IMG/VR virus record: IMGVR_UViG_3300031951_013707 | Location: 1-44,292 of that record | Source of the DNA: a virus | Length of the DNA stretch: 44,292 bases | Strand: one strand, 5' to 3' | In this document: positions 7,022 to 30,712 of the stretch, piece after piece | How the letters are laid out: the number at the start of each line of letters is the position of its first letter | Position numbering within the stretch: position 1 is the stretch's first letter | Made by a program: the position numbers and the translations under genes | Notes under the pieces: model-generated | Told to the model about the DNA's origin: nothing | Databases searched by the model: none | What the model saw: the letters and a program-made list of their open reading frames with translations, nothing else

Positions 7022-9793
7022 TTAAGATTTATTTACAAACCCAGATATAATGATCTCCGTATAGTAATTTGGATCGTTCCAGAAGCTATCTGTAATATCA
7101 ACACCATCGATAGAAAACAGTCGAACGGTTAAATCTTTATCGTACATTACCTTCTTAAGTACTTCGTATCCGTAATTTCTGGGAAAATGTCCACCTGCAA
7201 AATGAAATTCTCCGCTGAACTTTTTGACAGAAGATTTAAATAAATCATAATTTTCGTCTAAAAACGTTTTTTCAAAACCTTCGATATCAAATTTTAAGAA
7301 ATCAACAGAACGATTCAGTAATTTTATCAGATCCGGAAATGTTATAGATAAAGATTTTTGTTCTTTGTTATTGTGGAACATTGAAGCAAATGTTTGAATT
7401 GATTTACGTGTATCAATTAAGGAGTGAATTAAAACAGGCGACGTATCTCCGTCTATATTATCTATAAAGTCAGACAAACAATCGGTACTGCCATCTACGC
7501 CAATATACTTTATACCTTTATTTTTGTGTTTGATATAAAAATATCCCATAGAACATCCCAAATCTACTACAAAATCATTTTTTTCCACCTGCACAAATTT
7601 CTCATATTGATTCCATTCAAATATTTCTTTATATGTAAATGGATCGAATTTTTTTGTAGATTTAATATCTTGATTTGGGTTTATCAACCGATCAATATTT
7701 TGTTTTACCGTTTCAAACGATATTTGTTTATAACATTCAAATTGTTTTTCTGTACCTTTATTAACTGGACACCAATTCCAATCTCCGCCGTCGAATTTAA
7801 ATTTTGTATTATTCCAACATCCATTACATACCGATTCATTTATCACTCTATACGGATTATTGAATTCATTAAAAGCCTTTGTAAATCCAGAAATCATAAT
7901 TACAGGTTTATGACAAGCCCATGCTAACCACGATAGTCCAGAACTAAGTCCTATAAAAAACTCACAATTAGATATATCATCTATACGGTCTTGTAAAGAA
8001 ATGTCTCCTGTTTTATCAATACAATTCTTAGGAATAGAGTTTATTACAACGCTATTGCCATATTGTGAATATCTATCTATACAAACTACTTCATAGTCAA
8101 GTGATTTTAAATAGTCTACTGTTTGTTGCCATCCATCTGCACTCCAGTATTTACACTGAGACGTTGACTGTGTTGCTATACATACGTATTTTTTTGGAAT
8201 ATTACTTCCCCGTGTTGATTTTAACTTTTTGGGAAGAATTTCTTTATATTCAAATCCCAAAATCTCAGCGGTTATTTGTTGTAAATTCTGTGTTCTATAA
8301 TCTTTTGGAGAATATTGTCTCGCCTCATCAGACATAAAACATCCAATTTTATATGAAGCGTAATATTCTTTTAAAACAGCCGCGTCAAATTTTAAAAAAT
8401 TAATGTTTGGATATGATTCTTTAAACAAATCTAAATGTGGTGTATAAAAATCTAAATCACACTTATGAGTTTTTTGAAATTTGTCAATATAAGGCATCCA
8501 CGAAATAAAATCTCCTAAAGATGGGGATTCATTTATAATTTTTACAGATTTACCATTCAAATCAAAATCAAAATTAGTTTGTTCCTTTGTATGAAGATCT
8601 AAAACTTCAATTCGCCAGTTTATAAAATACTTAATACTAGGCATACACCACATATTATTTTTTATCCGAGTCTCATAAACCAAACTATTATTTTGTTTAT
8701 TAAAAAACTTGACAGAATACTCTCTATCAAAGTGTCCCAATACTTCCACTTTACACCCATCTGTAAAATCATGTTTTATAACATTTCTAGGAGGTATGCT
8801 ATTTTTATGGTTAATAACTGTATTTTTATAAATCTCTTCTAATTGAGTTTTCATATTTGAATCTTTTAAAACGTATCTATCTAATAATGTATCTACAATT
8901 TTGTCCCACGATTTATTTTTTGCTGTAATTATAGAATTTTCTCTAAATTTATCGTAGTGTTGAATAACATGTTTCACGCCTGTTAATACACTTTCAGTAT
9001 CTCTTTCTATTCTATAGAGACCAGATAATGTATTATTTTTTTCAAACGTTCCTACGATTGGTAAACCACATGACATCGCTTCTAATAATGTTAAATTTGG
9101 ATGTCCTGCTTCTAATATAGAAGGATGTAAAAATATAGTATGTTCTTGATAAGTTTTCAACAACTCCTGTTCAGTAAGATCGTACTTTATAGTTAATTTT
9201 TCATACGTAGGATTGATTTTATCAAAAAACTTCTTGTTATTTTTCGGTCCTGCAATGGTAATTGGTAAGTTTAATTTTTTAGCCACTTCAATTGCGTACA
9301 AAAATCCTTTACGATCTTCTGACATGTCATGTGTAAACCCATTATTAGCTACACATAATAGTTTATGTGTCGAGAACTTTTTTTCAACTGGTTTAAAAAA
9401 ATCAGAATTTACACCGTGACTTAAATATTCTAAATTTGGTAAATTGAAGTAATCTATTAAGTACTTTGCCGGAACAAACGATTTTATAGAATTTTTTATT
9501 GCTTCGTAGTTTTGTTTGAATATACCGGAATCTTTACCGTATAAATAGGCATGATGATCATGACATGTAAAATAATAAGGTATTCCTCGTTTATGTGCCT
9601 GTACTGCTAAATTTGCAATGTGTATGTGAACTATATCGCCATGTTTATAATTAACTTCATCCAAATAACAAATTTTACTCTGTATATTTTTACGTTCTAA
9701 AATCAAATGATATTCCCAAATAATTTTTTCTACAGCCCCCCATCCATTTGGAGGAATCGAAATTAGACCCGGTGTAACATTAATAATTCTCAT
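7022..9793 (-). CDS. Three-domain enzyme: GT4 glycosyltransferase, BAHT-type heptosyltransferase, FkbM-like methyltransferase
   Basis: This 923-residue fusion has three parts. Residues 1-310 are a GT-B, GT4-like glycosyltransferase starting MRIINVTPGLISIPPNGWGAVEK, with an E-x7-E type motif (EAGHPNLTLLEAMSCGLP, about 226-242). Residues about 335-700 resemble the autotransporter O-heptosyltransferase (TibC/BAHT, GT9-related) family: a beta-rich lead-in, SLGDFISWMPY near 431, a GLSSGLSWLAWACHKPV segment, and a four-cysteine signature (CNGC, WCP, FEC, about 655-687) like the iron-binding cysteines of TibC. Residues about 735-923 are a class I, FkbM-like methyltransferase (VVDLGCSMGYFY, then FLKFDIEGFEKTF). 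BAHT enzymes put heptose on Ser of adhesin repeats, and FkbM enzymes O-methylate sugars. It is the last gene of block 2, just before the tail sheath. The sugar and acceptor are unknown. Confidence 0.8.
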   Translation of the reverse strand: MRIINVTPGLISIPPNGWGAVEKIIWEYHLILERKNIQSKICYLDEVNYKHGDIVHIHIANLAVQAHKRGIPYYFTCHDHHAYLYGKDSGIFKQNYEAIKNSIKSFVPAKYLIDYFNLPNLEYLSHGVNSDFFKPVEKKFSTHKLLCVANNGFTHDMSEDRKGFLYAIEVAKKLNLPITIAGPKNNKKFFDKINPTYEKLTIKYDLTEQELLKTYQEHTIFLHPSILEAGHPNLTLLEAMSCGLPIVGTFEKNNTLSGLYRIERDTESVLTGVKHVIQHYDKFRENSIITAKNKSWDKIVDTLLDRYVLKDSNMKTQLEEIYKNTVINHKNSIPPRNVIKHDFTDGCKVEVLGHFDREYSVKFFNKQNNSLVYETRIKNNMWCMPSIKYFINWRIEVLDLHTKEQTNFDFDLNGKSVKIINESPSLGDFISWMPYIDKFQKTHKCDLDFYTPHLDLFKESYPNINFLKFDAAVLKEYYASYKIGCFMSDEARQYSPKDYRTQNLQQITAEILGFEYKEILPKKLKSTRGSNIPKKYVCIATQSTSQCKYWSADGWQQTVDYLKSLDYEVVCIDRYSQYGNSVVINSIPKNCIDKTGDISLQDRIDDISNCEFFIGLSSGLSWLAWACHKPVIMISGFTKAFNEFNNPYRVINESVCNGCWNNTKFKFDGGDWNWCPVNKGTEKQFECYKQISFETVKQNIDRLINPNQDIKSTKKFDPFTYKEIFEWNQYEKFVQVEKNDFVVDLGCSMGYFYIKHKNKGIKYIGVDGSTDCLSDFIDNIDGDTSPVLIHSLIDTRKSIQTFASMFHNNKEQKSLSITFPDLIKLLNRSVDFLKFDIEGFEKTFLDENYDLFKSSVKKFSGEFHFAGGHFPRNYGYEVLKKVMYDKDLTVRLFSIDGVDITDSFWNDPNYYTEIIISGFVNKS

Positions 9794-9798
9794 ACTAT

Positions 9799-9806: not shown

Positions 9807-9835
9807 GAACAAAAATACCAAATCGTTTATTTTAA

Positions 9836-10810
9836 TTAAACTGTTTGTACGTAGGCTATAGATTTTAAATTCTCTATAGTATTGATATTAACTATCCTAT
9901 CAAATAAGATTTCATTATTATATTTAAACACAATCTCGGTATCAATTTCATTTATATCTATGAAATGTAATAACCAATTTGATTTATTGCATTCAACCTT
10001 GAATATAGTTTGATTATTAACTATCAACTCAAACTCACCGTCTTCGGATGTTATATAAAAAAACAAAGGTTTAAATTTATCATTCAAATTATAAATCAAT
10101 GAATATTTTTTGTTGAAATGATGAAAAATATCAATTTGGCTTTTTGAAAAATAAGAGTTTATATTATCTTCTATAATATACAATTCATTTTCAAATTTAT
10201 TAAATAAAGATACAAGTATTTCTTCCACTATATTCGAAGAAGATTTATATGGTTCTATATTAAGCCAATCGTCATAACTCACAGGTAATGGAACGGCATC
10301 TACAAAATAATTTACGTCACCCGCAAAAAATTTAGATTCATACGAGTAACCACCAGGGCTGGATCTATTATAATTTTTAAAAACAAACATCTTTTTACCA
10401 TGTTGATCTAATAACTGTGGTATATTACTAATTTTAAATAAATCTTCATCGTTTAAAATGTTGTCGTAATCTGAAAAAATAAATTTATCATAACCTAGAG
10501 ATTTGACAAATTTTAATGCATTATTCACGTTTTTCATAAACGCAAATCCATGTCTACAACTAAGTATGTTTATTTTTAACTTGTTATAAACAAACCAAGA
10601 AACAGGTGTGTTTTGTAGGGGCAATAAAAAGTTATCGGAGTCGTAAATAAAGTAATTAATCTCATTTAATATATGTTCCGGTAAGGGAATATGTGATACT
10701 AATAATATATCAGTATTTGATAGTTTTTTAAACTGTCTTATATAATCAAGTAATATTGATTTTTTATAAGGTGAATCTGCATAACATGATATTATTGCTA
10801 TATTTTTCAT
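9836..10810 (-). CDS. GT-A-like glycosyltransferase with C-terminal beta module
   Basis: This 324-residue protein begins with a Rossmann-type strand (MKNIAIISCYADSPY). Near residue 116 it has FIFSDYDN, where D-Y-D sits in the position of a GT-A DxD metal/nucleotide-sugar motif. A region around residues 145-175 includes FAGDVNYFVDAVPLPVSYDDW. The last 100 residues are beta-rich and share a pattern (W, about 20 residues, then paired strands) with the other three block 2 enzymes. It sits between two clear glycosyltransferase genes, one base downstream of the triple GT. The family is not certain. Divergent GT-A is the best reading, and a non-catalytic partner is possible. Confidence 0.5.
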   Translation of the reverse strand: MKNIAIISCYADSPYKKSILLDYIRQFKKLSNTDILLVSHIPLPEHILNEINYFIYDSDNFLLPLQNTPVSWFVYNKLKINILSCRHGFAFMKNVNNALKFVKSLGYDKFIFSDYDNILNDEDLFKISNIPQLLDQHGKKMFVFKNYNRSSPGGYSYESKFFAGDVNYFVDAVPLPVSYDDWLNIEPYKSSSNIVEEILVSLFNKFENELYIIEDNINSYFSKSQIDIFHHFNKKYSLIYNLNDKFKPLFFYITSEDGEFELIVNNQTIFKVECNKSNWLLHFIDINEIDTEIVFKYNNEILFDRIVNINTIENLKSIAYVQTV

Positions 10811-10811
10811 T

Positions 10812-13394
10812 TTAATCGAAATGATATATATGTGTTATAAATTTATTGACGGTTTCAAATGGTTTTACTAATATCGTTTTATATAATAAAGTGCCTTCAC
10901 TAAAAACCTTAAGTTCATGACGTTTTTTACTATCCAATTCAACACCCCACCAATTATTAGCACATAAAACTAAATTAATAGGCGCGTGATGTATTGTAGG
11001 GTGTGTAATATCATTGACATGTACAGTAATAAAATGAAGTTTATCAGCTATAAATTCGATATAGAATTGATTCGTATCACTAAATTTGACTGTTAACGAT
11101 CCATTTATTTCAGATCTAACTTTGTTTTTACTAACAACTTTTATTTTATAATTTTTTAAATGATTAAAGATATAATAATCATCGTGAATTTCCGATTTGT
11201 CAAAATTCATCCAAGAATATTTTACACTTTCGTCTACCTCAATATGTTTTGGTAAACGTTTATTTTTCATATTATTTTCTGTGATAGTGTATGTTTTAGC
11301 ATCATGACTTGGATTCCACTTATCATTAAACAATGATAAACCACAACCTCTAATAACATTATATGCCGATGAGTGTTTCAAATAGTCATATTTAGATAAA
11401 TCTAATTTTACATATATTGCCTTTCCAAAAAGTTTAAGTCTTAAAGCAAAATCGTTATCTTCATACTCACCGGCGAGAAACCGTTCATCCATCATGCCTA
11501 TTTCTTTAAATAATGATTTTGTTGTACCAAATAAACCAAATCCAACTAAAGACGCAAAGCATTTACCTAACATTAATTCTTTTATTATAAACTTTAAATC
11601 ATTCTCATTTAAAACTGTTTTTGGATTTACAAAAATCATATATTCGGATTTCGTATTATAAACCGATTCATTAACCATTTGTGAAAATGAAGCATATCCA
11701 TTTGGAGAATAATCTCTTGAAAGATAAATCTCCAGCTCAAATTGTGTGTTTTTCACAGACTGTAATTGACTATTAATTATGTAATCGTCGTTTGAAAATA
11801 ATATTAAAGCAATCTTTTTTGGTAACATATATTCCAAAAAGTCATCCAATCTTTGTTGATACGATCTACCACAAAATTGAATAATAAAGTCGCCTGATTG
11901 ATATATGTTATCTTCTTGATTCCAATTTGGATAATATTGTAACACATTCGGGTCATTTGTTTTACAAAATCCATTACAAACTCGTTCATGAATCATTTTT
12001 GTACGATTCTTATAAACTTCTTCGTTTAATAATAACAATCGCATAGATTGTTGTGCATGATCAAATACATTAACATCTATGTTTTTAAGATATGGTTTTT
12101 CTAAGTCATATGCATCTCTTAAAAATTGTTTTGTCAAATCACAATTTCTATAAAACGCAGATCCATTAGATATATAACTGTATTTGTTTGCTGTAAAAAT
12201 TAAATCATAATTATTGTCAATTATCGATTCTAACTGAATATCAAAATTTACTATCAACGAATCTAAATCGATCCACCATACCCAATCATATTTATCCGTT
12301 AACAAAAGACTTTCTACAGCCTTCACCATTCCCCATTGAGCAGGTCTTGTCCTATCAATAACATCGTTAAAATAAATAAAATCATAATCATATTTACCGG
12401 CGTATGACATTTTATTTGGTATTGATAGTTTTGCTAAATCAGCATAGTTTTTATCAAACAACGTTACTATTGCAATTCTCTTTTTATTTTTATAAAATCC
12501 ATTCATATTAAAAATCTTGTTTTTTAAATATTCTAAACAGTTATCTAACTCAGAAACCGATTTACATCCATGGAAAAATTTTATATCATTTTTATCTTTT
12601 GGTATGTAATGCCATGCACATTCATCAACCCAATAATCAGTTTTTGGATTTTCATAAAAATTTTTTATAGAATCGCAATTCGACAAATTGAAGTGAATAA
12701 TAGGCAGATGTTTAGTTGCATTATATTTCCATAACAATACATTTATTATTGTTTCATCATGATACGGCGCATACAATAAATTATTGTTTAATATACGTAT
12801 ATCATTTGATATTTTTATACATTCTTCAAAAAAAGAACAACAGTTCTTATTAAATACTATAAAATTTGTTTGTACATAATACATCGATCTATGTTTAACA
12901 TCATATAGATTCATCATTGGAAGTTCCAACGGGTCGCCTAATCTGGGATCGCCAATTCCGTTTAAAATCATGTATTCGAATATACCTTTACCAACCAGAG
13001 GATAATTTTCACACTCTTTTAAGTATTCAAAAGATTCATCGATATTTTCACGAACTATCCCATCAGCATCTAGAAATATTCCTTCTTCTAATCCATGATT
13101 TAAAACATCTAATATTACACTTGGTTTTCTACTTAAAACGTAGTATGTATTATAATCGCTACGTTCTACTATACCTAAACTCGTATCAGTACTAAGTATA
13201 AAATTAGGGTCTTTCAAATTCACATCGTCTATACGTTTTGTATAAACGTTATTATGTTTCTTAGTATAGTCAAAATTAAAAGTGTATAATATTATTGGAT
13301 AACTTGAAAATAAACTTATACTTTCTATTAATTTTTCTACTAATGGACAGTAACGTTCATTAACAAACGTTACAAATGCTTTTTTAGGAAACAT
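10812..13394 (-). CDS. Triple GT-A glycosyltransferase fusion
   Basis: The protein is 860 residues from the ATG at 13394. An 18-base longer frame would need a TTG start inside the upstream gene, so I prefer the ATG. Three nucleotide-sugar transferase modules follow one another. The first has EGIFLDADG near 107. The second resembles GMA12/MNN10-type (GT34) enzymes with WVWWIDLDS near 374. The third is GT2-like with a FVNPKT strand and EYEDNDFALRLKLFG near 644. The last 110 residues are a beta-rich module also seen in neighbouring enzymes (NNWWGVELDSKKRHELKVF). Each DxD-type motif is intact, so all three could be active and build a glycan in sequence. Substrates are unknown. The gene lies 4 bases after the GT4-FkbM gene and 1 base before the 324-residue gene. 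Confidence 0.75.
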   Translation of the reverse strand: MFPKKAFVTFVNERYCPLVEKLIESISLFSSYPIILYTFNFDYTKKHNNVYTKRIDDVNLKDPNFILSTDTSLGIVERSDYNTYYVLSRKPSVILDVLNHGLEEGIFLDADGIVRENIDESFEYLKECENYPLVGKGIFEYMILNGIGDPRLGDPLELPMMNLYDVKHRSMYYVQTNFIVFNKNCCSFFEECIKISNDIRILNNNLLYAPYHDETIINVLLWKYNATKHLPIIHFNLSNCDSIKNFYENPKTDYWVDECAWHYIPKDKNDIKFFHGCKSVSELDNCLEYLKNKIFNMNGFYKNKKRIAIVTLFDKNYADLAKLSIPNKMSYAGKYDYDFIYFNDVIDRTRPAQWGMVKAVESLLLTDKYDWVWWIDLDSLIVNFDIQLESIIDNNYDLIFTANKYSYISNGSAFYRNCDLTKQFLRDAYDLEKPYLKNIDVNVFDHAQQSMRLLLLNEEVYKNRTKMIHERVCNGFCKTNDPNVLQYYPNWNQEDNIYQSGDFIIQFCGRSYQQRLDDFLEYMLPKKIALILFSNDDYIINSQLQSVKNTQFELEIYLSRDYSPNGYASFSQMVNESVYNTKSEYMIFVNPKTVLNENDLKFIIKELMLGKCFASLVGFGLFGTTKSLFKEIGMMDERFLAGEYEDNDFALRLKLFGKAIYVKLDLSKYDYLKHSSAYNVIRGCGLSLFNDKWNPSHDAKTYTITENNMKNKRLPKHIEVDESVKYSWMNFDKSEIHDDYYIFNHLKNYKIKVVSKNKVRSEINGSLTVKFSDTNQFYIEFIADKLHFITVHVNDITHPTIHHAPINLVLCANNWWGVELDSKKRHELKVFSEGTLLYKTILVKPFETVNKFITHIYHFD

Positions 13395-13398
13395 AATT

Positions 13399-15321
13399 TT
13401 ATTTTTTTGCAAAAAAGAAACCTACATCTTCTTTGAATTCTGGGTCTTCTGGATTATATATTGAGTATCCTATAGATTTAAATCTTTCAACAATCGGCTT
13501 TATATTTTTATGTTTGGCCCAGTGATATTCAATTAAATATCTATCTGATTTTAATAAGTCTTTATCTGAAAGGCTATTGATTACATCATACTCGGCTCCT
13601 TCAATATCTATTTTAATCAAATCTACGTGATCTAATTTATTGTTGATCATAAAGTCTTTAAGAGTGATGACATCGACTTCTTCTTCATTCATATTGTGAT
13701 TTGTATATGGATGAGTATCGTCTATAAATCCACTAATCGTAGAATTATCTTCGACTGACTTTATTTTAAATTTTCCATTAAAATTATAAATTGCTAACTT
13801 ATGAATATGAGCGTTGCTTTCACCCTTTAAAGATTCCGATATTTGATCAAACGCTTTCTTAGTAGGTTCTACAGCGTGTATAGTATTACAGTTACGTATA
13901 TTTAACATATACAAACTGAATAATCCTACATTTGCTCCTATATCAATAACAGTATTAAGATTTGACAATTCACAATTTTTATAAATGTCTTCATAAAACA
14001 TTTGTTTATAATTAATATACAAACAGTCAAACGGAGAAAAGTTTTTATTCAGTTTGATCGGAGTATAGTCCAGATCTCTTATCTTTAGAGTTTTAGAGCC
14101 AATTAGTTTTTTATCATTTGTATAAAATTCTAACAAAAATTCGCTAAAATAACTTTCGTTTTTAAAGTTTCTATCTCCATTTGGAACTATACGCCACCAA
14201 CAATCTTTTTCCATGCTTATATGACAAAAATACATAGGCATTTTTGTCATATTATCTTTAACAGATACATAACCACTAAATCCTTTACTTGAAATTAAAT
14301 GTATAGAGTTTGGCTCGGTAAATGATAGATTGATATCTAAATCGACATTGGTAATATCTACAATATTTGATTTTATTTTATCTTTTATCAACTTTAAGTT
14401 GTTTTCAAAATCTGGGGTTAACCAATTTAAATTTGGATACTTATCATACATTCCACAGTAAACTGGTAAGTTATACAATAACGATGGAATATTCCAACCT
14501 ATAGCTTCTCTTATAACTAATGGACTTGTCTCTTTATCTTTAATAGTACCTTTTGAGGTAAACAAAAATACATCCATTGCATTATAAAATGTATCTACAT
14601 CTCTACGTTCTCCCCAAATCTTACAATTTTTAGGTAAATCTTTTATTAAAGGTTCCCAGTAGAAACTAAAATTTTGTGCTTGATTACCTACGAAATGAAA
14701 TTGAACAGGCTGATCCGTTAATCTACGAGCATATTCTATAATTTCTGCCTGATTTTTACGAGGAGTAAACAATCCTACATTCACAAAATGTGTGAGATTC
14801 GGATCTAAACCTAATGCCAATAACGAACTATTTCTATCAGTCTTGGTTTTATATTCAATAGGATATTCTACAACATCCGATGGTATATCCAAAGAGGCGA
14901 ACATTTTCTTTTGATAAATGCTTACAAAAGCAAATCTATCTGGAAAAAATTGTTTAGAACTTACCTCGAAACTACTATCATGTGAGGTTTCTATGATTTT
15001 ATAAGTTCTGTCAGAAACATAGATTTTTTCAGCAATCGTTCTCTCACAAAAATACTCAGGCAATTCTTCAAAGTGAATTACGTCAGGTTTAATATTATCG
15101 ATTTGATTTAATAATTCTACTTTATTGTCGGTAAGTGTTATTAACTTATCGCCTAGTATTTCTCGTATTCTATTACGTTGTACTACAAATACACCTCCTG
15201 TAATATCATCATATTCAACACAATAAACATCGTGATGATCTTTCAATTCGACGATTTTCTTTAATAAGTATTGTGGACCTCCGCCTGTAGACAAATGTGG
15301 TGTTATAAACAATATCTTCAT
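13399..15321 (-). CDS. GT4 glycosyltransferase fused to FkbM methyltransferase
   Basis: This is a 640-residue, two-enzyme fusion. Residues 1-330 are GT-B/GT4-like: MKILFITPHLSTGGGPQYLL is the Gly-rich acceptor/donor loop of the family, and a strand DVFLFTSKGTIKDKETSPLVIREAIGW supplies the Glu-x-Glu type donor-binding segment. Residues about 335-430 are a beta module (MEKDCWWRI, then FLLEFYTNDKKLIG). Residues about 450-640 are a FkbM methyltransferase with the SAM loop VIDIGANVGLFSLY near 463 and DLIKIDIEGAEYDVI near 574. FkbM enzymes commonly O-methylate sugars, so this protein could add a sugar and then cap it. It is the first gene of block 2, 6 bases downstream of the SbcD-SbcC gene, so it is probably co-transcribed with DNA-repair genes. 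Confidence 0.85.
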   Translation of the reverse strand: MKILFITPHLSTGGGPQYLLKKIVELKDHHDVYCVEYDDITGGVFVVQRNRIREILGDKLITLTDNKVELLNQIDNIKPDVIHFEELPEYFCERTIAEKIYVSDRTYKIIETSHDSSFEVSSKQFFPDRFAFVSIYQKKMFASLDIPSDVVEYPIEYKTKTDRNSSLLALGLDPNLTHFVNVGLFTPRKNQAEIIEYARRLTDQPVQFHFVGNQAQNFSFYWEPLIKDLPKNCKIWGERRDVDTFYNAMDVFLFTSKGTIKDKETSPLVIREAIGWNIPSLLYNLPVYCGMYDKYPNLNWLTPDFENNLKLIKDKIKSNIVDITNVDLDINLSFTEPNSIHLISSKGFSGYVSVKDNMTKMPMYFCHISMEKDCWWRIVPNGDRNFKNESYFSEFLLEFYTNDKKLIGSKTLKIRDLDYTPIKLNKNFSPFDCLYINYKQMFYEDIYKNCELSNLNTVIDIGANVGLFSLYMLNIRNCNTIHAVEPTKKAFDQISESLKGESNAHIHKLAIYNFNGKFKIKSVEDNSTISGFIDDTHPYTNHNMNEEEVDVITLKDFMINNKLDHVDLIKIDIEGAEYDVINSLSDKDLLKSDRYLIEYHWAKHKNIKPIVERFKSIGYSIYNPEDPEFKEDVGFFFAKK

Positions 15322-15327
15322 ATAATA

Positions 15328-18300
15328 TCAAATATATACTACCTTACTATATCCGTTTTCTTTTTTTATTTCTAGTCTAGTATCAACCATATCTCTCATT
15401 TGATCCAGATGACTAATAACCCAGATAAAATCAAATTGATGTTTTAAATAGTTAAATAAAGCACCCATCTGACCCAAGTGGTCGCTGTCAGCACAACCAA
15501 ATCCTTCATCAATACAAATGATATTTGGTCTTGGTAAGTTACTAATGTTGATCAATGCAACTCTTATTGCCAATCCACTTACAAACTTCTCCATACCACT
15601 AGCCATTTCAAGTGGCCATTGTCTATCATCATAAACAATATTTGTACTGATGTTTTTACCATCTGTTTGCATAGATACACTAAATTCCACCAATTGATGA
15701 AGAATGTTGTTAACTTCCTTCTCAATTTCAGGCAAAGTCTTGGTAATAATCTCATATGGAATACCATCTCGGCTGATAACATTGGTATATAGTTTATAAG
15801 ACTCATACGAATCTTCAAGCTCTTTAACCTTGTTAAGCTGATCGGTTGTATTTTTATACTGCAATTCAAGTCGTCCCTTTTCAGTAGAAGTATTAAACAA
15901 TTTATTATTCAACGATTTAATCTGAACTTCACAATCCTTAATCAAAGATTTCACATCATTAATTTCTGCAATCAGCTTGATGTTATTTTCAATAATATCT
16001 TTATTTTTATAAAAATTTTCAATCTTTTGAACTACCTCTTTTAAAGTGTTTTGTAGTTTAATCTTGAAATTTTCGTCACGTAATATTGCTGTAGATAAAA
16101 CTTCTTTGGTCTTCTCTAATTTAACTTTATTGTTATTAACGCTCTGGCATTCTTTATAACGGGTTTCTATATCACCAAATGAATCCAATCTATTCTTTAT
16201 GATATTATACTCTTCTACCAACAATTTTCCTTTGTTTTTATCAAGTTCCAATTCTTCTTTGGTCTTAATAGCATCTTTTACAAAAACGTTATTTACACAA
16301 TATGTACAATTAGGATCGTACTTATGTTCTTCTAATTTTTTTAACTTGTCGATTTTATTTTTAACGACTACTTTAAGCTTATCAATTTCAGAAGACTTTT
16401 TGGATTCTTCGTCTTTGCAAATTTTATATTGTTCATAATCAGTTTCGATATTATCACAACTTTTTAATGACGAAGATAAATTATTTAATTCGGATTCAAT
16501 CGACAAAAACTTAGTCTTTTTATCATTAATATCTTTTTCAAAGTTACTAACTTTAGATTCCAAATCTTTCTTTTCTGATTCTAGTTCTGTGATATCAATA
16601 TCAAATGAAGAGGTCTTAACAACGTTATTTGATAGCTCCAACAACTTGTTATTTTGTTCGTCTTTTTTAGATTCCAACTCTTTTACTTCTAAATTATATT
16701 GTGTAATACTTGAATTATTAATATCAATACTACCAGATACATTTTGTAACTCTTGAAGTAACTGTTCTTTGCTTACATTCTTTAAAAGTGTATTTGTTTC
16801 TTTAAACTTGTCATTTGCCAAATTGTACAATTGATCAAATACGGTCAATCCCATAAATTGGCACAATAAATCCTTACGTTCAGTTTGACCTAGATCGATA
16901 AAAGATCCAGCCTTACTATTCTGTATACTAAGAACTGTTAAAATAAAGTCTTCATACGTACCTACGTAATCTCTGATTATATCATTCGTGCTTCTACGAG
17001 CTTCTCCGTTTAATGGTACTTCATTGCCGTTTTCTATTTTATAGAACTTAACATCAACCTTAACATTTCCTTTTTTATCGGCTTTACCGTCACGTTCAAT
17101 AAAGTAATCGACTCCATTTACCTCAAAGTTGAATTTACAACGAAAACTCATCTTTTGAGTATTTAAAACGTGTGATGCTTTGAATCCTTTACTAAACTTA
17201 TCAAATACACAAAACGCAAGTGCATCCATGATACTTGATTTACCACTTGCATTTGGTGCAAATAATCCGATAGTACCTTTTAGTTTTGTGAAATCAATTA
17301 TGTTACCCTCACCATAACTAAACATATTATCAAACTCAAACATCTTTGGCTTCCATCGAATGTTCTTTGGTGCTTTATCCTTGGGTATTTCTTTATTCAG
17401 AGTTTTATTTAACTCTTTAACTTTTTCTATAATATCCTTACCCAAATTTTTAGATACGAGATTATCTTCAATAAGTTTATTTTGATAATCGACATTAAAA
17501 ATGTTGTGTATGTCAAATATCTGACCAGACTTTAAAGTCAAATCATTAGAAAGTTCATCACCACGAACATATGTAGTTTCAACTAAAGTACATTTCTCTT
17601 TAATTTCACTTACAATTTCCTTTACCTGTGAGGGTATAGATTCCCTACAGATTACTCTTAATGTAGCCTTCTTTGGAATTGATGAAATATCCGTTACTAG
17701 CTTGCCTTTATTGATTTCAACTGTATAAAAACCGTGATCATTTGATAACTCATAGTGTTTATATACTTTACGTTTTAAGTCCCACATCAAAAATCCATGA
17801 CCTTTAAGTTCTTCACCATGATTTTGTTGAATCATAGAACCTGCGTATACAATTACTGGTTTATTTTCCTTTTCATCATATTCTTGTAGAACTTGGTGCT
17901 TGTGAATGTCACCTAACATTGCAATATGGTGACCGTCAAATAGTTCATTTGTAATAGCACGATTGCTTACAGTATATCCAATATCAGTAACAGCATTATT
18001 TACGGGTCCGTGAAACAGTGCAATGTGATGATCTGTACCAACCAGATACTTTGCGGGTACATCATCTAATTTTACGTATTTTTCAGGACTATCAAATACG
18101 CTGAAATTATTAAACAAGATATTTTCATACCTAAATACATCACTTGCCTTTAAGTAATAAAGATTTGAATGATTTAAACTGTCTACGATTGGAGTTAAAC
18201 AATCTAATCTAGACTTATTAGCTAATGTAGCGTCATGATTTCCCGCAGTGAGAATTGTAGGAACACGATCAGCGCAATTTTTTAGAAATTCACTTCCGAT

Positions 18301-19427: not shown

Positions 19428-19434
19428 TTACTAT

Positions 19435-19463: not shown

Positions 19464-19468
19464 GCACT

Positions 19469-19978: not shown

Positions 19979-19990
19979 TTAGAATATATA

Positions 19991-20485: not shown

Positions 20486-20511
20486 AAATGTCTATTTTAT
20501 AATAAATATAA

Positions 20512-23154: not shown

Positions 23155-23160
23155 TATGTA

Positions 23161-23168
23161 TATAAATA
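23161..23168 (-). promoter_or_regulatory. AT octamer TATTTATA before start codon
   Basis: TATTTATA on the coding strand, 6 bases before the ATG at 23154, in a 30-base gap with no Shine-Dalgarno. It is the same octamer and nearly the same distance as before the starts at 2831 and 33218. Confidence 0.25.
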
Positions 23169-23184
23169 TTCAAATTTGCCATAA

Positions 23185-25575
23185 TTATCCAGCATTTTCT
23201 TTTCTTTCCTCGGGTTTATAATAAGCAATTCTATTGTGATTAACAGGACTTGCTAATAATACAGCTGGTTTTAAGTTACCTTTTCTTGTTTCTTGAAACA
23301 TATGACTCATCCACGTTTGTTCATATGGATGGGCCCATGTGGTATCTAAAAACATCTTTTTATTTCCTCGTTTACCGACTATCATTGGCCAATTTGCATA
23401 ATATACTTCACCCTTGATATAACTCAATCCGTCAACTACTTCGATTGTATCAAACTTAGTTCTAGGACAGTTAGGATCGTGTCCCGTAACTGGTAATTTA
23501 CTGTAAGTAGGCCAGATTTCATTTCTTACTGTTTGAGGCACATTGTACCAAGAAACTTGTATGTTGTTATCCATGTATACTTCTGTGTATGAAAACTTTA
23601 AGAAATCTACATCGTTGTCTCCATCAATAATTTTTAAAACTTTATCATACAAATTTGGTACGTAGGTTGTGAATCCATTACGACATACTTCGGATCCGGG
23701 TTCATGTATACCCATATCATCTTCCAAAAATACATAATAATCACTATCAGATTCTTGAAAGTGTTGTGCTGCTTTAAATCTACCACCATTTATTCCTGTA
23801 TTTTGATTATTTATGATATGTTCAAAATTATACTTTTTACACAATTCTGCATTTGCAATTCTAGCTTCTTCGTTTGTAGAATTATCAATCAAAATGTTTC
23901 GTGTATTGGTTATCCACTTTGGATGTTTAAGCCAGGTTTGTATAGTATGTTCGACTTGATGTGGAAAGTTAAATGTTAACATATATATTGATAATTTTAA
24001 CTTATCAACATCCACTGACTTTTTTGGAATATAAACATTAGCTGTTTTAGGTATCTTTTCAAGTTGTACCGTATTATCAATAAGCGATTGTACAAATTTT
24101 ACAATTAAACCATTTGAATCTAATGAATATCTTCTATACTTCTCCGGCTCTAAATAAGACATTATAGTAAATATACTCTCTTCTGTACCCATACAACCAT
24201 CATTCAAACTTCTATCTAACAACGAATAATACATTGCGTTTGCTTGATTAATAACATCTTTACTTCCACCAAATAGCCCACCCCTACAAACGTATTTTAC
24301 TTTCTGACCACAATACTGATTAATTTTGTTGTAATCAAATCCATGTATTTCTTTATCAGCTTCATATGGATAACTTAAAAACAAAAATGATTCTAAATAA
24401 GGAATTATTTTATCCAAACACTTATTGTCAGTAAAATATTTTTCATATACGGTATTTGTTATTCCTGCGTCTAACCAAATAAAATGTTTTGTATCAAACG
24501 GATTCCAAATGGTAACATCATTCAATAAAAACATTTTTGATTGTACTATTGGATTATACCATTCTAAAGATGCTTGTGGAGAAGATGATAACCACCCTGC
24601 TATATTGAACCAATTATGATCGGTTCTTATTTTTTGTGTTTTTTCCCAAAATGGGTTATACATATTTTTTATATCACTCAACTCATATATTTTTACGTAA
24701 GTGTTTTGTGGAGATCTTTTTTTCCAAACCAAATGTTCTAATTCTTTTGGCAAATAAATAAATAAATTTGCATCAATATCCAATAACTTATTAAAATGTT
24801 CAATATAATGATCAAACGATCTTCCTGTTCTGTTTATGTTCCAAAGACCTGTAACAACGGTTAAGTCTTTAGATATTTTACTTTTACCGACTGTGTTAAC
24901 ATTGTTTTTAATTTTTTCGTAAATTTGTCTATCGACGCCATCTATATTTTGACCTATTTCAATCACATAACCATTTTTTTCAAATTTTTCAATTGTTAAT
25001 TTTTTCTCTTCTTCGGAAAGATTGATATATTCTAATCTTATAAATTTTGGACGAATTTTACTAAAATCTAATTGTTGAAATATTTTCCAGTCATAACCTT
25101 CGGCATCACAAATTAAAACGTCAATTTTTGATATGTTATGTTTATCTATTAAAGATTTTAATGTTAACGTATTAACTTTTATATCTACTCCGAATTTGGA
25201 TTTAACATCTACGTCTCGTTGATAATCACTTCCAAATCCATTTCTTAAAGGATACAAAGCACTCATACCTTTATATCCAGTATGTAAATTCTCTCTTTCA
25301 ATAACATCTGATGGAATTGTTAACATTACAGTTTCTCCATCAAAATCGGATATAGCAGATTGTTCGTATTTATAATTATCTACATAAGAAAAGTTCTTTT
25401 TTAACTCTTCCATAATAGACGGAATCGGTTCAACTAATAATGCTGGCCATCGATACATATCTAAAAAACCACGGGTATCGTCAAAAATTATACCGTCCAT
25501 TGCTCCAATTTGCAAAACAAACGTATCATTGTAGTTTTTACCTATATAATGTAAAGTGTCAGATATTATATTCAT
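23185..25575 (-). CDS. Three-domain enzyme: FkbM methyltransferase, HtrL/YibB-like, GT-A glycosyltransferase
   Basis: This is a 796-residue fusion. Residues 1-215 are an FkbM-type methyltransferase (VLQIGAMDG at 20-28, VLICDAEGYDWKIF near 157). Residues about 232-505 match the HtrL/YibB pattern: LTVVTGLWNINRTGR, then HFIWLDAGI near 368 with a D at the sugar-donor position, GGLFGGSKD, and GCMGTEESIF. Residues about 530-796 are GT-A/GT2-like (SIYMLTFNFPHQVEHTIQTW, then YYVFLEDDMG near 618 as the DxD motif). It ends block 1 and overlaps the upstream GT-A gene by ATGA. FkbM first and GT last is the reverse order of the block 2 fusions. Methylated-sugar transfer is a reasonable guess; the acceptor is unknown. 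Confidence 0.75.
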   Translation of the reverse strand: MNIISDTLHYIGKNYNDTFVLQIGAMDGIIFDDTRGFLDMYRWPALLVEPIPSIMEELKKNFSYVDNYKYEQSAISDFDGETVMLTIPSDVIERENLHTGYKGMSALYPLRNGFGSDYQRDVDVKSKFGVDIKVNTLTLKSLIDKHNISKIDVLICDAEGYDWKIFQQLDFSKIRPKFIRLEYINLSEEEKKLTIEKFEKNGYVIEIGQNIDGVDRQIYEKIKNNVNTVGKSKISKDLTVVTGLWNINRTGRSFDHYIEHFNKLLDIDANLFIYLPKELEHLVWKKRSPQNTYVKIYELSDIKNMYNPFWEKTQKIRTDHNWFNIAGWLSSSPQASLEWYNPIVQSKMFLLNDVTIWNPFDTKHFIWLDAGITNTVYEKYFTDNKCLDKIIPYLESFLFLSYPYEADKEIHGFDYNKINQYCGQKVKYVCRGGLFGGSKDVINQANAMYYSLLDRSLNDGCMGTEESIFTIMSYLEPEKYRRYSLDSNGLIVKFVQSLIDNTVQLEKIPKTANVYIPKKSVDVDKLKLSIYMLTFNFPHQVEHTIQTWLKHPKWITNTRNILIDNSTNEEARIANAELCKKYNFEHIINNQNTGINGGRFKAAQHFQESDSDYYVFLEDDMGIHEPGSEVCRNGFTTYVPNLYDKVLKIIDGDNDVDFLKFSYTEVYMDNNIQVSWYNVPQTVRNEIWPTYSKLPVTGHDPNCPRTKFDTIEVVDGLSYIKGEVYYANWPMIVGKRGNKKMFLDTTWAHPYEQTWMSHMFQETRKGNLKPAVLLASPVNHNRIAYYKPEERKENAG

Positions 25576-26396
25576 TTTAAATAACCCATTTTATAAAAAT
25601 TAGTGTGTGAATCGTCGGCTTGTTCTTGACGATATAAATTGCATCCTTCATTTATATCATGTGTTGTGTGTGAAAGTACAGGAAAAGTCGTTACCCCTCC
25701 TTTGTCTCTCCAGTCTTGTAACGATAGAAGTTTTTCTTCGTTTTCATAAAAAGTCACCATTTTTCGAATGTTGTGTTTTCCTAAATATGCTGCAACGATA
25801 ATATCATCATTCCAACTTCCCTCTTTATAAAATTCAAAAAAATCATCTTTAAAAAAGTTTCTTTTATAAGAAACAGTTTTATAGTGTTGCAATACATTAA
25901 CATATATGTTTTCAGCAACCGAGACGACATAATGATCTCTTACATCTCCTTTTAATTTTGAAACGTCTTCTGGTGTTTCTCTATCAGCCCTCATACCATC
26001 ATAACCAATTGCAGTATTTTCATATATAGATTGGTTCTTAACGTGTTCTGATAACATCGAAGGATGATATATTAAATCATCATCACATACCACTATTATA
26101 GTATTTGGATTGTCTTCCCGATGTAATGTATAAAAAATCTTAGTTATTGTCCCCAAATCTTGTAATCCACAAAATAACTTTAATTTAGGATTGGTTATGC
26201 TTAAATTTTTAAGACAATCAGGCACAATATATTTTTCTTTGGTTTTATGATTTTCATCTGGTATGTTTAAATGGATTTCGTAATCGCCATCAAATTCTTG
26301 ATTTAATAATGAATTTAAACAATCTTTAATACCTGACGTATATGTTGTAGAATTTAAACGTGTGGGTATTGTGGTAAGCGTGATTATGGTTTTCAT
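25572..26396 (-). CDS. GT-A glycosyltransferase
   Basis: This 274-residue single-domain enzyme begins MKTIITLTTIPTRLN, typical of an N-terminal donor-binding strand. IIVVCDDDLIY near residue 102 is the metal-binding DxD, and SWNDDIIVAAYLGKH near 218 is a likely catalytic-base region. No membrane segment is visible, so it should act in the cytoplasm on a phage protein or a soluble acceptor. The start overlaps the upstream gene region by only a 2-base gap, and the end overlaps the next start as ATGA, so it is tightly coupled within block 1. The sugar is unknown. Confidence 0.75.
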   Translation of the reverse strand: MKTIITLTTIPTRLNSTTYTSGIKDCLNSLLNQEFDGDYEIHLNIPDENHKTKEKYIVPDCLKNLSITNPKLKLFCGLQDLGTITKIFYTLHREDNPNTIIVVCDDDLIYHPSMLSEHVKNQSIYENTAIGYDGMRADRETPEDVSKLKGDVRDHYVVSVAENIYVNVLQHYKTVSYKRNFFKDDFFEFYKEGSWNDDIIVAAYLGKHNIRKMVTFYENEEKLLSLQDWRDKGGVTTFPVLSHTTHDINEGCNLYRQEQADDSHTNFYKMGYLK

Positions 26397-26398
26397 AT

Positions 26399-27415
26399 TT
26401 AATTTCCAATCGTGGTATAAACGTGGGTATCGGTAATTTCTAAAATTGGGAGATGTTGATCATAATATTTTTTAAGTTGTAACTTATTGTTTTTAATAAA
26501 TTTTGATATAGACGTTACATCCGAATAGTCAAAAGAAAAATGGTCCCAACATGAACGGGAACCAACTGAATGAAATGTATCCTCCGGCCTAGTTTTATGA
26601 ATCATTATATTACCCCATTTTGGTAAATGAGTTAGATCTTGTGCATTTAAATATAAATAATCTAAGTTATTTTTTAATATATCAAATGCCGTTGGAAATG
26701 TCCAAATAAAATTGTGATAATACGTTCCTTTAAATAAAAGAGTCTGGTTCAGAGAAAATGATTCAGTTATAAAAGTATCGATTAAATTAAATAATAAAAG
26801 TAAATCTTTTTTATTTTTAAAATTTCCGCCATAAATAAAACTATCATCGTTACGAAACTGAAAATTTTCTAATTTAAATTTGGGTAATTGATTATTAGTA
26901 CATTTTTCCAAAAAATTAAAAATAATATTAACATAAGAAGATTCTTTTGTATGATATCCTTGATTCCAAGCATAAACCGACCCTACAGGTATATTATTAA
27001 AAAAATCTTCAATACATTCTATATCGTTTCGTATAACCATATCAGTATCCACAATAACAAAATTTAGAATATTTTTTTCCGAAAAATATTTTAATATATA
27101 CCTGTTTAAAAACAAAGGCACTTGAATTTTATTTATAGAATAAAATTGATTAAATTTTAAATAAAACTCTTCGTCTGAAGAAGCTTCCATGCATATTTCG
27201 TTTTGTAAACTTAATAAATTATCGTTTCGTAAATCGTCAATTACAACAAACGTAAATAAATCGTGATAATCTTTATACAACTCAAAATAATATTTTGTAG
27301 TAAATATTACAATATAATTCTTAACAACGTCACTACAAGATTTTAGTAGTAAATCAAACCTATATTTCATAGGGGTGCCAAAACAATACATTGCAATTTT
27401 AGGAGATTCATTCAT
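26399..27415 (-). CDS. GT-A-type glycosyltransferase
   Basis: The protein has 338 residues. NFVIVDTDMVI near residue 123 is a DxD strand of GT-A enzymes, preceded by a VPLFLNRYILKYF helix that matches the GT8-like layout (helix then DxD). A later region RNDDSFIYGGNF (about 185-197) and HNFIWTFPTAFDIL could form the acceptor pocket. IMIHKTRPEDTFHSVGSRSCW near the end contains a conserved-looking His. It starts inside the upstream methyltransferase gene (8-base overlap). The glycosyltransferase call rests on the DxD motif, length and location. The family assignment is uncertain. Confidence 0.65.
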   Translation of the reverse strand: MNESPKIAMYCFGTPMKYRFDLLLKSCSDVVKNYIVIFTTKYYFELYKDYHDLFTFVVIDDLRNDNLLSLQNEICMEASSDEEFYLKFNQFYSINKIQVPLFLNRYILKYFSEKNILNFVIVDTDMVIRNDIECIEDFFNNIPVGSVYAWNQGYHTKESSYVNIIFNFLEKCTNNQLPKFKLENFQFRNDDSFIYGGNFKNKKDLLLLFNLIDTFITESFSLNQTLLFKGTYYHNFIWTFPTAFDILKNNLDYLYLNAQDLTHLPKWGNIMIHKTRPEDTFHSVGSRSCWDHFSFDYSDVTSISKFIKNNKLQLKKYYDQHLPILEITDTHVYTTIGN

Positions 27416-28112
27416 GATTTATAAATATCGATTGCCTCCCCCCCACGATTTTTGTATATCCATTTTGTAAAAGATATGGTGTTAATAATTTGTCTTTTCC
27501 ACCAACAGGTTCTATAAAATCAGTATCATCTACAGATATTAAATGTAAGGGAGATAATTTGGGTCTTGCTGTAATAAATGCTTCTAAATGTTTTTCTGCA
27601 TATAAATGACTACCAACATCCCATCCATCTAAATACAAAAAGTCGATTTGTTTATTAAAATTTTTTAAAAATTCAATTCCACATTGTGGAATGCAAATAT
27701 GTAAATTACTTGGAAGATCTTCGTTTAAATGATATTTATACTGATTTTCTAATTGTGTCTTACAATGTGGATCTATATCAACTGTGTATACATCGTATCC
27801 TTCTTTAGCCCAAAAATGAGTAGAATGTCCATCTTGACAACAAGGCGGTGCCTCACATTCTTTTATATCAAATGATTTGTTATAATAGTCGATACATTTT
27901 TGTGTAGTTTCTATACGAGTAGATCCTATTTCCACTATAGTTTTTGCTTCTAAAATTCTAAGAAACTCATGTGTTTTTCTTATCCATTTTGCGGGATAAC
28001 TTCTTAGACTATTTTCAAATGGTTCTAATCTAACACGATCCCAGTAAATTACATCTGGATTAAAATTTTTAGATAACTCTAGTATTTTTGTATATTTCTC
28101 ATTCATAATCAT
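27408..28112 (-). CDS. Class I SAM-dependent methyltransferase
   Basis: I start this at the ATG at 28112, whose ATGA overlaps the upstream stop. A longer frame to 28139 would need a TTG codon. The protein is 234 residues. TIVEIGST near 58 is the SAM-binding glycine loop, YDVYTVDIDPHC is the acidic second strand that binds the ribose, and IDFLYLDGWDVGSHLYAEKHLE is the next strand with the catalytic region. A CEAPPCCQDGHSTHFW insert of Cys and His residues between strands 1 and 2 is unusual and could bind metal. The end overlaps the next GT-A gene by 8 bases. By context it should methylate a glycan, which is inference. Confidence 0.7.
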   Translation of the reverse strand: MIMNEKYTKILELSKNFNPDVIYWDRVRLEPFENSLRSYPAKWIRKTHEFLRILEAKTIVEIGSTRIETTQKCIDYYNKSFDIKECEAPPCCQDGHSTHFWAKEGYDVYTVDIDPHCKTQLENQYKYHLNEDLPSNLHICIPQCGIEFLKNFNKQIDFLYLDGWDVGSHLYAEKHLEAFITARPKLSPLHLISVDDTDFIEPVGGKDKLLTPYLLQNGYTKIVGGRQSIFINHE

Positions 28113-30712
28113 AATTTTATTTCTATACGTTCTGACCAACCTCTTGTTTCACTTACTGCCCAATAAACCACTTTTATAGGCCACCTATCAGTTAAGAAAT
28201 ATTCTTCATAATGAATTGGCGTACTGTTATGTATAAAATCGGTTAATTGTTTTCCAACAATATATTTACTATTTACAGATTTACCACCAGCATCATCGAA
28301 TGCTACTAAAATAGCAGAATAATCATTTGCAGGTAATTGATCTCTAGTAATATTAACTAGATGATAAAATGACTTTTTAAGTGATTTTTTCCATTCATCG
28401 TCTGACATTGGTGGATTTGGTGGAATATCATTATCCATAGTATACTGTTGAACTGATTTTTCTTTAAAACATATACCTGAATATAGTTCGTAATCATGTA
28501 ATGATCGTTCTTTACCAAGATCATATCCAGTCAAATCAAATCCATTGTATTCGGTTTGTAGTAACTGTCTAATTTTAGCTCTCGCCTTATTCTGTGAATC
28601 ACTCCAATTTTCACCTCTTTTATTTTGATCATCCCACACAAGAATACCATCACGCTCTTTTCTAGTCATTGAATGCCAAATAACAACTTTATGTGGATGA
28701 TAAATATCATATCCGTGTGTAAAAGATCTAACGGTGAGATTTATTTCTTCTCCACTAAAGAAAATATCCACATCGTGTTTAATAGTCTTAGCCCAGTGAT
28801 TATCACCAAAACAAAAATGGCCTGATAAAAACCGAGCTGGTACAGGTTTTGTTATTTGATTAAGATTCTTAAAAGCAGCGGGTCTAATAAAAATAGTACC
28901 GTGTGGATAAAAACAAGACATTACCGACTGCCAAGGTTCTTTTGTTCTAGATTTAGGATCGTCAGTTGGATCATAAAAAGGAAGATATCCAGCAACAAGT
29001 GGTTTTTTAACACCGTCTTTTTTTAAACCGTCGTGCATTTCAATTAAAGTATTATCCCAGTCTTTATTAAAACGATGATGACTGTCTAACTGTAAAATGT
29101 ACTCTTCATCGAGCATCATTGTGTTGATCTGATACCTAGCAAATGGCAACCCTTTTGCTTCAGTATAATCCATGTCAATAATTCTAAACCTTTCGTCGTT
29201 ACGATATTTGTCTATATCTCTAGAAAACTTATCATCTTCATTAAATTGATGACAAATTCCAAAAACTAATCTTTCAGGATGTTTAGCATTAGTCAATGCA
29301 CTTTCTATCGTAGGTAATAGTTCAGGATCTCTATATGCCGGTATATGAACAAATATTTTACGTTTATTTGGATTTTTATTAAACTTAACTTTGGATTTCT
29401 TGTATTTGTTTATATGTTTCCACAGACTGACAGGATCGGGTGTACGTGGAATTGGTTTTTTAAAATCATAAATGATACGTTCTATTCTCTCCGTCCATCC
29501 CTTTGATTTACTATGTGGCCAAAATACATAACTGTATGGAAGTTCTTTTGTATAAAAAGTTCTCCAAATTCTATACCATTTATCAGAAGGATTTGATCTT
29601 TTAAATGAATTTACTTCATTTTCATCCGCGTCACATCTAATAATTTCTTTACCATCTGCATTTTTAAATGCAATGATCCAGGCATCATAATCGTTTTCGG
29701 GAACACTATCTACATGCATATCTATGCAAAATTTAAAAACATGTATCCACGACTTTTCATATTCAACCGAATCTTCTATAATCGGATTTGGTGCCAGTTT
29801 TTGATCTAATGTATATTGTTGTACAGCTCTGTCTTTAAATCTTACTCCAGCAAATCTTTCATAATCTTCTAATGATCTAACTTTACCCAAATCAAAAATG
29901 CCAAAATCTATATTTTTGATTTCGCCATCCATACCAAATAGTTTTCTTGTTCTAAGATGTGAAGAATTGTTTCTCTCATTCCAAATCTTATCATCATCCC
30001 ACTGTTTAACCGCACCATTTCTATAATAATAATGCCACGCTACAATTTTATGTGGGTGAAATAAATCATATCCGTGTGTGTAAGCTCTAACAGCCATATT
30101 TATTTCTTCACCGTGAAAGTATAGGTTTGGATCATATACAACTTCTTTAACAAATGAACCAAGTGTAAAAACAAAATGTCCGGAAAAAAATCTTGCTGGA
30201 ATGGGAGAAGTCAACTTTTTATAATTCGGTATCACAGACGGCGTTGGAAATATTGGCCCTTCAGGTAAATATCTATCAAAACATATCATCCACGGTTCGT
30301 GTACTCTAGCAGCAGGATCATTATTTGGTTCATATGACGGAATATAAGCAGTAATCAATGGTTTTTTAGATCCTTTTTTTTGTAGATCTTTTAACATTTC
30401 AATTAATTGTTCATCCCAATTTTCCACAAATCGATGATGACTATCTAATTGCATACAATACTCTTCGCCAGAATACAATAAATTAAGTTGATGTCTTACC
30501 CAACAGACACCTTTGCTTTCCTTATAAGGTATGTCAATAATTTTGAATCTATTATCATTTTTGAATTCATCCAAATTTTCAGATTCATCATGTTGCCATC
30601 CTATAGCAAAAACTAAATTTTCCGGATGTTTTGCTTTATCAATACAATCTTTGATTGTTGGAATTAATTCTGGATCTCTATAACTCGCTATTTGTACAAA
30701 TATCTTTGACAT
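28109..30712 (-). CDS. Tandem-duplicated GT60-like N-acetylglucosaminyltransferase
   Basis: This 867-residue protein holds two copies of one domain. Copy 1 (residues 1-400) has IFVQIASYRDPELIPT, MQLDSHHRF near 88, PARFFSGHFVF, and FHGEEINMAVRAYTHGYD. Copy 2 (about 425-867) has IFVHIPAYRDPELLPT, LQLDSHHRF near 541, PARFLSGHFCF and FSGEEINLTVRSFTHGYD. Each copy has its own DSH motif, so both should be active. This pattern fits the GlcNAc-transferase family of Skp1 hydroxyproline GlcNAc-transferase (GT60). Members also glycosylate Thr of trypanosome mucins. It lies immediately downstream of the Pro/Thr/Ser repeat gene, a striking substrate candidate. It opens block 1 and is followed by an ATGA-coupled methyltransferase. 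Confidence 0.8.
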   Translation of the reverse strand: MSKIFVQIASYRDPELIPTIKDCIDKAKHPENLVFAIGWQHDESENLDEFKNDNRFKIIDIPYKESKGVCWVRHQLNLLYSGEEYCMQLDSHHRFVENWDEQLIEMLKDLQKKGSKKPLITAYIPSYEPNNDPAARVHEPWMICFDRYLPEGPIFPTPSVIPNYKKLTSPIPARFFSGHFVFTLGSFVKEVVYDPNLYFHGEEINMAVRAYTHGYDLFHPHKIVAWHYYYRNGAVKQWDDDKIWNERNNSSHLRTRKLFGMDGEIKNIDFGIFDLGKVRSLEDYERFAGVRFKDRAVQQYTLDQKLAPNPIIEDSVEYEKSWIHVFKFCIDMHVDSVPENDYDAWIIAFKNADGKEIIRCDADENEVNSFKRSNPSDKWYRIWRTFYTKELPYSYVFWPHSKSKGWTERIERIIYDFKKPIPRTPDPVSLWKHINKYKKSKVKFNKNPNKRKIFVHIPAYRDPELLPTIESALTNAKHPERLVFGICHQFNEDDKFSRDIDKYRNDERFRIIDMDYTEAKGLPFARYQINTMMLDEEYILQLDSHHRFNKDWDNTLIEMHDGLKKDGVKKPLVAGYLPFYDPTDDPKSRTKEPWQSVMSCFYPHGTIFIRPAAFKNLNQITKPVPARFLSGHFCFGDNHWAKTIKHDVDIFFSGEEINLTVRSFTHGYDIYHPHKVVIWHSMTRKERDGILVWDDQNKRGENWSDSQNKARAKIRQLLQTEYNGFDLTGYDLGKERSLHDYELYSGICFKEKSVQQYTMDNDIPPNPPMSDDEWKKSLKKSFYHLVNITRDQLPANDYSAILVAFDDAGGKSVNSKYIVGKQLTDFIHNSTPIHYEEYFLTDRWPIKVVYWAVSETRGWSERIEIKL

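Follow-up and report, generated by a model that had tools for sequence, protein, structure and literature searches.

The question raised by this locus is what a phage would modify with so many glycosylation enzymes: proteins of its own virion, the surface of its host or its DNA. The window, by which we mean the whole 44,292-base IMG/VR fragment IMGVR_UViG_3300031951_013707, is part of an incomplete genome and comes from a T4-like myovirus, with tail sheath and baseplate wedge proteins (the latter at 41661-44041) and with all main genes on the minus strand. Block A (7022-15321; 8,300 bp, four genes) lies between the sheath gene and that of a fused gp47/gp46-like protein, and block B (23185-30712; 7,528 bp, five genes) lies between the gene of an FG-GAP propeller protein and that of an 801-residue protein. 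The nine contiguous open reading frames together occupy 35.7% of the window, in agreement with an earlier note on this DNA, which described two glycosylation blocks of nine genes filling over a third of it. The span proposed there, 7022-30712, does contain both blocks, but ~7.9 kb within it (15322-23184) consists of non-glycosylation genes, which encode the gp47/gp46-like fusion, a primase-like protein, a RuvC-like protein (assigned by eye), a 164-residue protein and the propeller protein.

Comparison of the block proteins with Pfam, NCBIfam and PHROGs returned matches to GT4, TibC/GT9, GT34, HtrL_YibB, GT2-like and two GT60 domains, together with three FkbM methyltransferase domains, of which one matched weakly (Table 1). 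With assignments made by eye, namely 27408-28139 as a fourth methyltransferase and DxD-bearing proteins without a Pfam match as glycosyltransferases (GTs), the tally for the nine proteins is ~12 GT and 4 methyltransferase domains, close to the ten or more and four counted previously. The reported absence of a polymerase, flippase or membrane segment was likewise borne out: the three databases gave no family match to a membrane enzyme, flippase or polymerase in the window fragment, and none of the nine block proteins contains a 19-residue window hydrophobic enough for a membrane helix. In block A, the GT34 match of the 10812-13412 protein scored 8e-12 and its PHROG galactosyl transferase match 0.003, with DxD at residues 115 and 382, and stretches homologous to the 9836-10810 protein are fused to GT domains in relatives. 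In block B, homologues of the 23185-25575 protein accompany GT60 in contigs L005-L018 and in phage XacN1.

Table 1. Features of the two glycosylation blocks and of the neighbouring tail genes (aa, amino acids; MT, methyltransferase).
Coordinates	Strand	Feature	Basis or context
2907..6929	-	Tail sheath, 1340 aa; tentatively proposed TibC acceptor	TibC gene directly upstream in TibC-positive close relatives
7022..9793	-	GT4 + TibC/BAHT-type domain (residues 334-703) + FkbM-like methyltransferase; immediately upstream of sheath	Pfam, TIGR04414, PDB 4RAP
9836..10810	-	Probable GT-A glycosyltransferase, 324 aa	DxD-like motifs; no Pfam/family match
10812..13412	-	Multi-domain GT: DxD domain, GT34 (MNN10/GMA12-like), weak galactosyltransferase-like stretch, C-terminal domain	Pfam, PHROG, motifs
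13399..15321	-	GT4 + FkbM methyltransferase	Pfam, NCBIfam
20512..23154	-	FG-GAP beta-propeller protein	Pfam; relatives with and without block B have it
23171..32498	-	Module (stalk, C-domain, five GT/MT genes) inserted relative to G017, which has 57 bp	blastn empty-site comparison
23185..25575	-	FkbM methyltransferase + HtrL/YibB-like GT + GT2-like domain	Pfam
25572..26396	-	GT2-like glycosyltransferase	Weak Pfam match (0.0037); homologues in L008, L017, L018
26399..27415	-	Probable GT-A enzyme, 338 aa, VDTD motif	No family match; homologue in L008 (58%)
27408..28139	-	Probable SAM methyltransferase, 243 aa (by eye)	No Pfam match; homologues in L008, L017, L018
28109..30712	-	Tandem GT60 (PF11397) polypeptide GlcNAc-transferase-like enzyme	Pfam, two DSH (DxH) motifs
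30813..33218	-	N-domain + mucin-like stalk + Cys-rich C-domain; proposed GT60 acceptor	Composition, repeats, relatives

The best lead to the role of block B is the 801-residue protein, which is encoded just outside the span of the earlier note and went unmentioned in it. Its gene lies directly before the GT60 gene, and the protein comprises a conserved N-domain (residues 1-240; mean AlphaFold2 pLDDT 34), a stalk (~244-640) and the C-domain. The stalk, ~397 residues of TPTPSV/I type with 106 Thr, 83 Ser (189 Ser/Thr) and 104 Pro, is coded by a degenerate 18-bp tandem repeat and classifies as mucin-like (PTS) sequence. The neighbouring enzyme matched PF11397 at 7.9e-125 and 417 bits (gathering cut-off 21), with both tandem copies matching, and carries DSH, the DxH motif that replaces DxD, at residues 90 and 543; DSH was present in 29 of 29 homologues. 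GT60 and GT27 are Ser/Thr polypeptide O-glycosyltransferases that have DxH in common (PMC7185993), and the T. cruzi GT60 starts mucin glycans by forming GlcNAc-alpha-Thr (PMC9472816). Judged from its sequence, the tandem enzyme belongs to this family of polypeptide glycosyltransferases.

Relatives were collected by a scan with the baseplate protein, which yielded 30 records, for the most part with 85-97% identity in this protein; PF11397 was found in none of the 30. In the close relatives covering the site, the stalk gene encodes the N-domain alone (241-248 residues) and is directly followed by the propeller gene, the exception being L156 (94% identical baseplate protein), where the sequence passes into a stalk at this site and the contig then ends inside it. 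By blastn, homology to G017 breaks off at window position 32499, in codon 240 of the stalk gene, and is picked up again at 23170; between these points G017 has 57 bp and the window 9,328 bp, so that the stalk, the C-domain and all five block B genes form one insertion. The window nests inside a block-B-negative clade in the core-gene tree, and four contigs of another clade (L005-L008) possess the stalk and block B and lack block A. The insertion shows the stalk and block B to be a shared module. A functional link does not follow from this alone; the two are contiguous, and their co-loss could therefore be one recombination event without functional coupling. An assembly chimera at block B was considered and judged unlikely, because L005-L008 share the gene order from stalk and GT60 through to the 23185 homologue and FG-GAP, and because L156 enters the stalk at the same point.

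The association of stalk and enzyme was also examined in 50 viral contigs chosen solely by a TPTPS-type repeat and 50 controls chosen by a matched Ala pattern. PF11397 occurred in 21/50 of the stalk-bearing contigs and in 0/50 of the controls (Fisher 3e-8), the controls being shorter on average. GT60 lay <=10 kb from the stalk in 11 of the 21 co-carrying contigs, compared with 4.4 expected (p 0.001), and in about half of the co-carrying contigs GT60 and the Pro/Thr stalk were far apart.

Block A contains an enzyme of a different family. TibC of E. coli is a protein O-heptosyltransferase by which autotransporter adhesins are hyperglycosylated at Ser residues. Residues 337-702 of the 7022-9793 protein matched TIGR04414 at 376 bits and 1.5e-112 (equivalog cut-off 200), and the TibC domain matched PDB 4RAP at E 1.3e-74. 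The TibC residues Asp110 (catalytic) and Thr226, Lys230, Arg286 and Trp305 (sugar-binding) are aligned and identical, the Arg286 equivalent being lost in some phage TibC homologues, and the equivalents of the iron-finger residues Cys339, Cys342, Cys358 and Cys370 are kept as C-x2-C-x15-C-x11-C at residue 656, with the same spacing as in TibC. At TibC position 300, the stereoselectivity residue, the phage protein has Ser, as does AAH, which takes both ADP-heptose epimers. No autotransporter family was found among the scanned window proteins, the neighbours being the sheath and GT genes, and because this partner is absent we label the domain a BAHT-type enzyme and not an autotransporter heptosyltransferase. 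These features place the predicted enzyme in the protein-acceptor (BAHT) class.

TibC-type genes were present in 11 of the 30 close-relative records. In each of these 11 the TibC gene adjoins the sheath gene upstream, or nothing but a second, shorter TibC-like copy lies between the two. This second gene (270-294 aa, without the N-terminal part) was seen between TibC and sheath in L186, L187, L189 and L190 (G032, G018, G037 and G029), and also in L374 and L385. At the other end of block A, relatives usually have a GT4+FkbM homologue of 13399-15321 beside gp46/47, and the block is variable in its middle. The sheath itself has a long Ser/Thr-rich region with no counterpart in the sheath (812 aa) of the Microcystis phage Mel-JY01, which carries a TibC-like gene, and AlphaFold2 gave this extra region a mean pLDDT of 30. 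Ser/Thr content of the sheath fails to separate TibC-positive from TibC-negative relatives, sheaths of similar length and Ser content occurring without TibC, and no demonstrated beta-helix acceptor was found.

More distantly, an alignment-based scan found TibC relatives in 434 viral-contig stretches, where a scan with the single TibC protein had given no match; the earlier description of the fused enzyme set as unusual is thus only partly right. At 42 dereplicated TibC loci the next genes often encode either a sheath or a tail protein containing extended arrays of Ser-Ser-Gly/Thr-Ser-Gly. Loosely counted SG[TS] proved unspecific and gave way to a strict array test, in which ([ST]SG)n arrays occurred at 14/38 TibC loci, compared with 0/58 controls and 0/14 GT60 loci. 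Conversely, Thr-Pro stalks were found at 7/14 GT60 loci and 0/38 TibC loci, the 14 GT60 loci being partly non-independent since L005-L008 are close relatives. In LR756501, an unrelated giant phage of 735 kb (L023 20136-25923), block A homologues (GT4-TibC, and a fusion of GT4 with a 9836-10810-like stretch) adjoin the gene of a Ser-Gly repeat protein, with a sheath-like gene ~14 kb away. In G004, which lacks TibC, a second Thr/Pro/Ser stalk protein (L030 10772-12736; 654 aa, weakly laminin-G-like at the C-terminus) adjoins the sheath.

Collectively, these observations make it quite likely that blocks A and B constitute a phage-encoded O-glycosylation system with virion tail proteins as its acceptors. 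Both blocks would act in the cytosol during virion assembly, with donor sugars presumably supplied by the host; no sugar-nucleotide gene was seen, and the PF00483 nucleotidyltransferase was sought in relatives without a match. The tandem GT60 enzyme would start glycans on Thr/Ser of the neighbouring stalk, a pairing that we regard as moderately probable, and the remaining block B enzymes may lengthen the chains and add terminal methyl groups. In block A, the TibC/BAHT domain would transfer heptose or a related sugar from ADP-heptose to Ser of a virion protein, which the GT4, GT34, GT2 and FkbM domains may then elaborate. The adjacent sheath is the foremost candidate for this acceptor, although its assignment is tentative, and another Ser-rich tail protein could serve instead. 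The benefit might be a tail surface that is stiffened, hydrated, shielded or ligand-bearing, which is speculative.

The enzymes could instead alter LPS or capsule glycans of the host during infection, leading to superinfection exclusion or a serotype-like conversion. Many phage GTs modify host surface glycans, and GT4, GT2, GT34 and FkbM domains are common in LPS or capsule loci. However, the nine block proteins all lack membrane segments, the TibC-type and GT60 enzymes fall in protein-acceptor families, and block B arrives with a Thr/Pro/Ser stalk of the virion region, inside the tail gene cluster, which makes this explanation improbable. The preference of the earlier note for soluble protein acceptors over host LPS is supported by the same two families, by the joint movement of block B and stalk, and by the position of TibC before the sheath in 11/11 relatives. 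Glycosylation of hypermodified DNA bases, as in T4, appears very improbable. The phage is T4-like, and virus-encoded GTs that hypermodify DNA are known (from a reference as cited in PMC12619734), but a thymidylate synthase/dCMP hydroxymethylase (PF00303) match is missing from nine related IMG/VR records (60-226 kb, mostly fragments), which weakens this reading, and from Mel-JY01; among the relatives searched, XacN1 was the sole exception, with a thymidylate synthase-family match. Moreover, no GT matched a DNA glucosyltransferase family in Pfam, NCBIfam or PHROGs, and close relatives exist that altogether lack block B or block A.

If the acceptors do belong to the virion, they might still be others, such as the FG-GAP propeller, a 1479-aa protein, the capsid or fibres encoded outside the fragment, with the stalk and the sheath mere neighbours of the enzyme genes. 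The propeller lies between the blocks, the 44-kb fragment is an incomplete genome, and GT60 can be distant from stalk genes. We nevertheless find this arrangement unlikely, given that the stalk is gained or lost together with block B and that TibC holds its position ahead of the sheath while the central genes of block A vary. The earlier note had pointed to the propeller adhesin and the sheath as the proteins flanked by the blocks; the sheath is retained here as the TibC candidate, whereas the propeller, because it occurs in relatives both with and without block B, gives way to the stalk as a candidate acceptor.

The virion-glycosylation reading can be set beside several known systems. With characterized BAHT enzymes (TIGR04414; PDB 4RAP/4RB4) the phage domain shares a family score over the cut-off, the catalytic Asp, the sugar-binding residues, the Cys spacing and an N-domain followed by a GT9-like core; unlike them, it is phage-borne, is fused to GT4 and FkbM-like domains and has no autotransporter nearby, the next gene being that of the tail sheath, in place of which other phages often have a tail protein with Ser-Gly repeats. 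With T. cruzi TcOGNT1 and the Dictyostelium Skp1 GlcNAc transferase, the GT60 protein shares a strong PF11397 match, DxH and a mucin-like Thr/Pro/Ser candidate acceptor, but here it is a soluble, tandem-duplicated and phage-borne predicted enzyme, known from sequence, whose gene stands beside that of its candidate acceptor. Phage-encoded virion glycosylation as such is already known. In mycobacteriophages, phage-encoded GTs decorate structural proteins of the virion, the C-termini of capsid and tail tube proteins being modified according to Freeman et al. 2023 as cited in PMC12619734; compared with that account, the candidates here are a mucin-like stalk and perhaps the sheath, and the enzymes form two large blocks that include TibC-type and GT60 families. 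The Xanthomonas jumbo phage XacN1 is reported to have at least two virion glycoproteins, left unnamed in the main text, which its authors suggest are made by phage GTs (PMC5852040). XacN1 resembles the window in encoding a GT60 homologue (ORF334; 39.6% identical), a protein homologous to that at 23185-25575 and, as ORF350, a stalk protein rich in Thr, Pro and Ser, but it is a giant and distant relative in which the GT60 gene, ~12 kb away, does not adjoin the stalk gene. In the literature searched, which lay largely outside subscription papers, we found no work linking phages with BAHT enzymes or PF11397, and none describing a TibC-type heptosyltransferase beside a tail sheath or the joint movement of a GT60 enzyme and a mucin-like stalk.

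Virion glycosylation in phages has been described in few cases, mostly mycobacteriophages, and what determines its acceptors is poorly understood; in the present phage the enzymes fall in two characterized protein-acceptor families, and the likely acceptors can be named and tested. Judging by the 434 TibC-like stretches and the presence of GT60 in 21/50 stalk contigs, sugar-coated tails may be widespread among environmental phages, which, if true, would have consequences for adsorption, particle stability and recognition. A broader possibility, to which we give slightly less than even chances, is that aquatic phages carry matched enzyme-acceptor pairs exchanged as modules, GT60 with Thr-Pro stalks and TibC with sheath or (Ser-Ser/Thr-Gly)n tail proteins, giving a mucin-type stalk and a heptosylated tail. 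The blocks also offer new soluble Ser/Thr glycosyltransferases.

Several features of the surrounding genes were also observed. The propeller and a 373-aa protein (33254-34375) resemble each other in a C-terminal motif (ITTVGLY...), suggestive of a common module for virion attachment. The gene at 15328-18513 fuses gp47-like metallophosphatase and gp46-like AAA domains in 1061 aa, as also in relatives, and is split into two open reading frames in G017 (L196 5247-8599). The tail gene region includes a phage protein with a DnaJ domain (1128-1787), and at 80-1114 lies the gene of a 344-aa protein with a KIDG motif and an RNA-ligase-like look, to which a stretch inside the 'cytidylyltransferase like' protein of Mel-JY01 (L022 11243-13162) is related. 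Compared with the other close relatives, G029 carries an extra 285-aa open reading frame between the RuvC-like and primase genes (L205 5360-6217).
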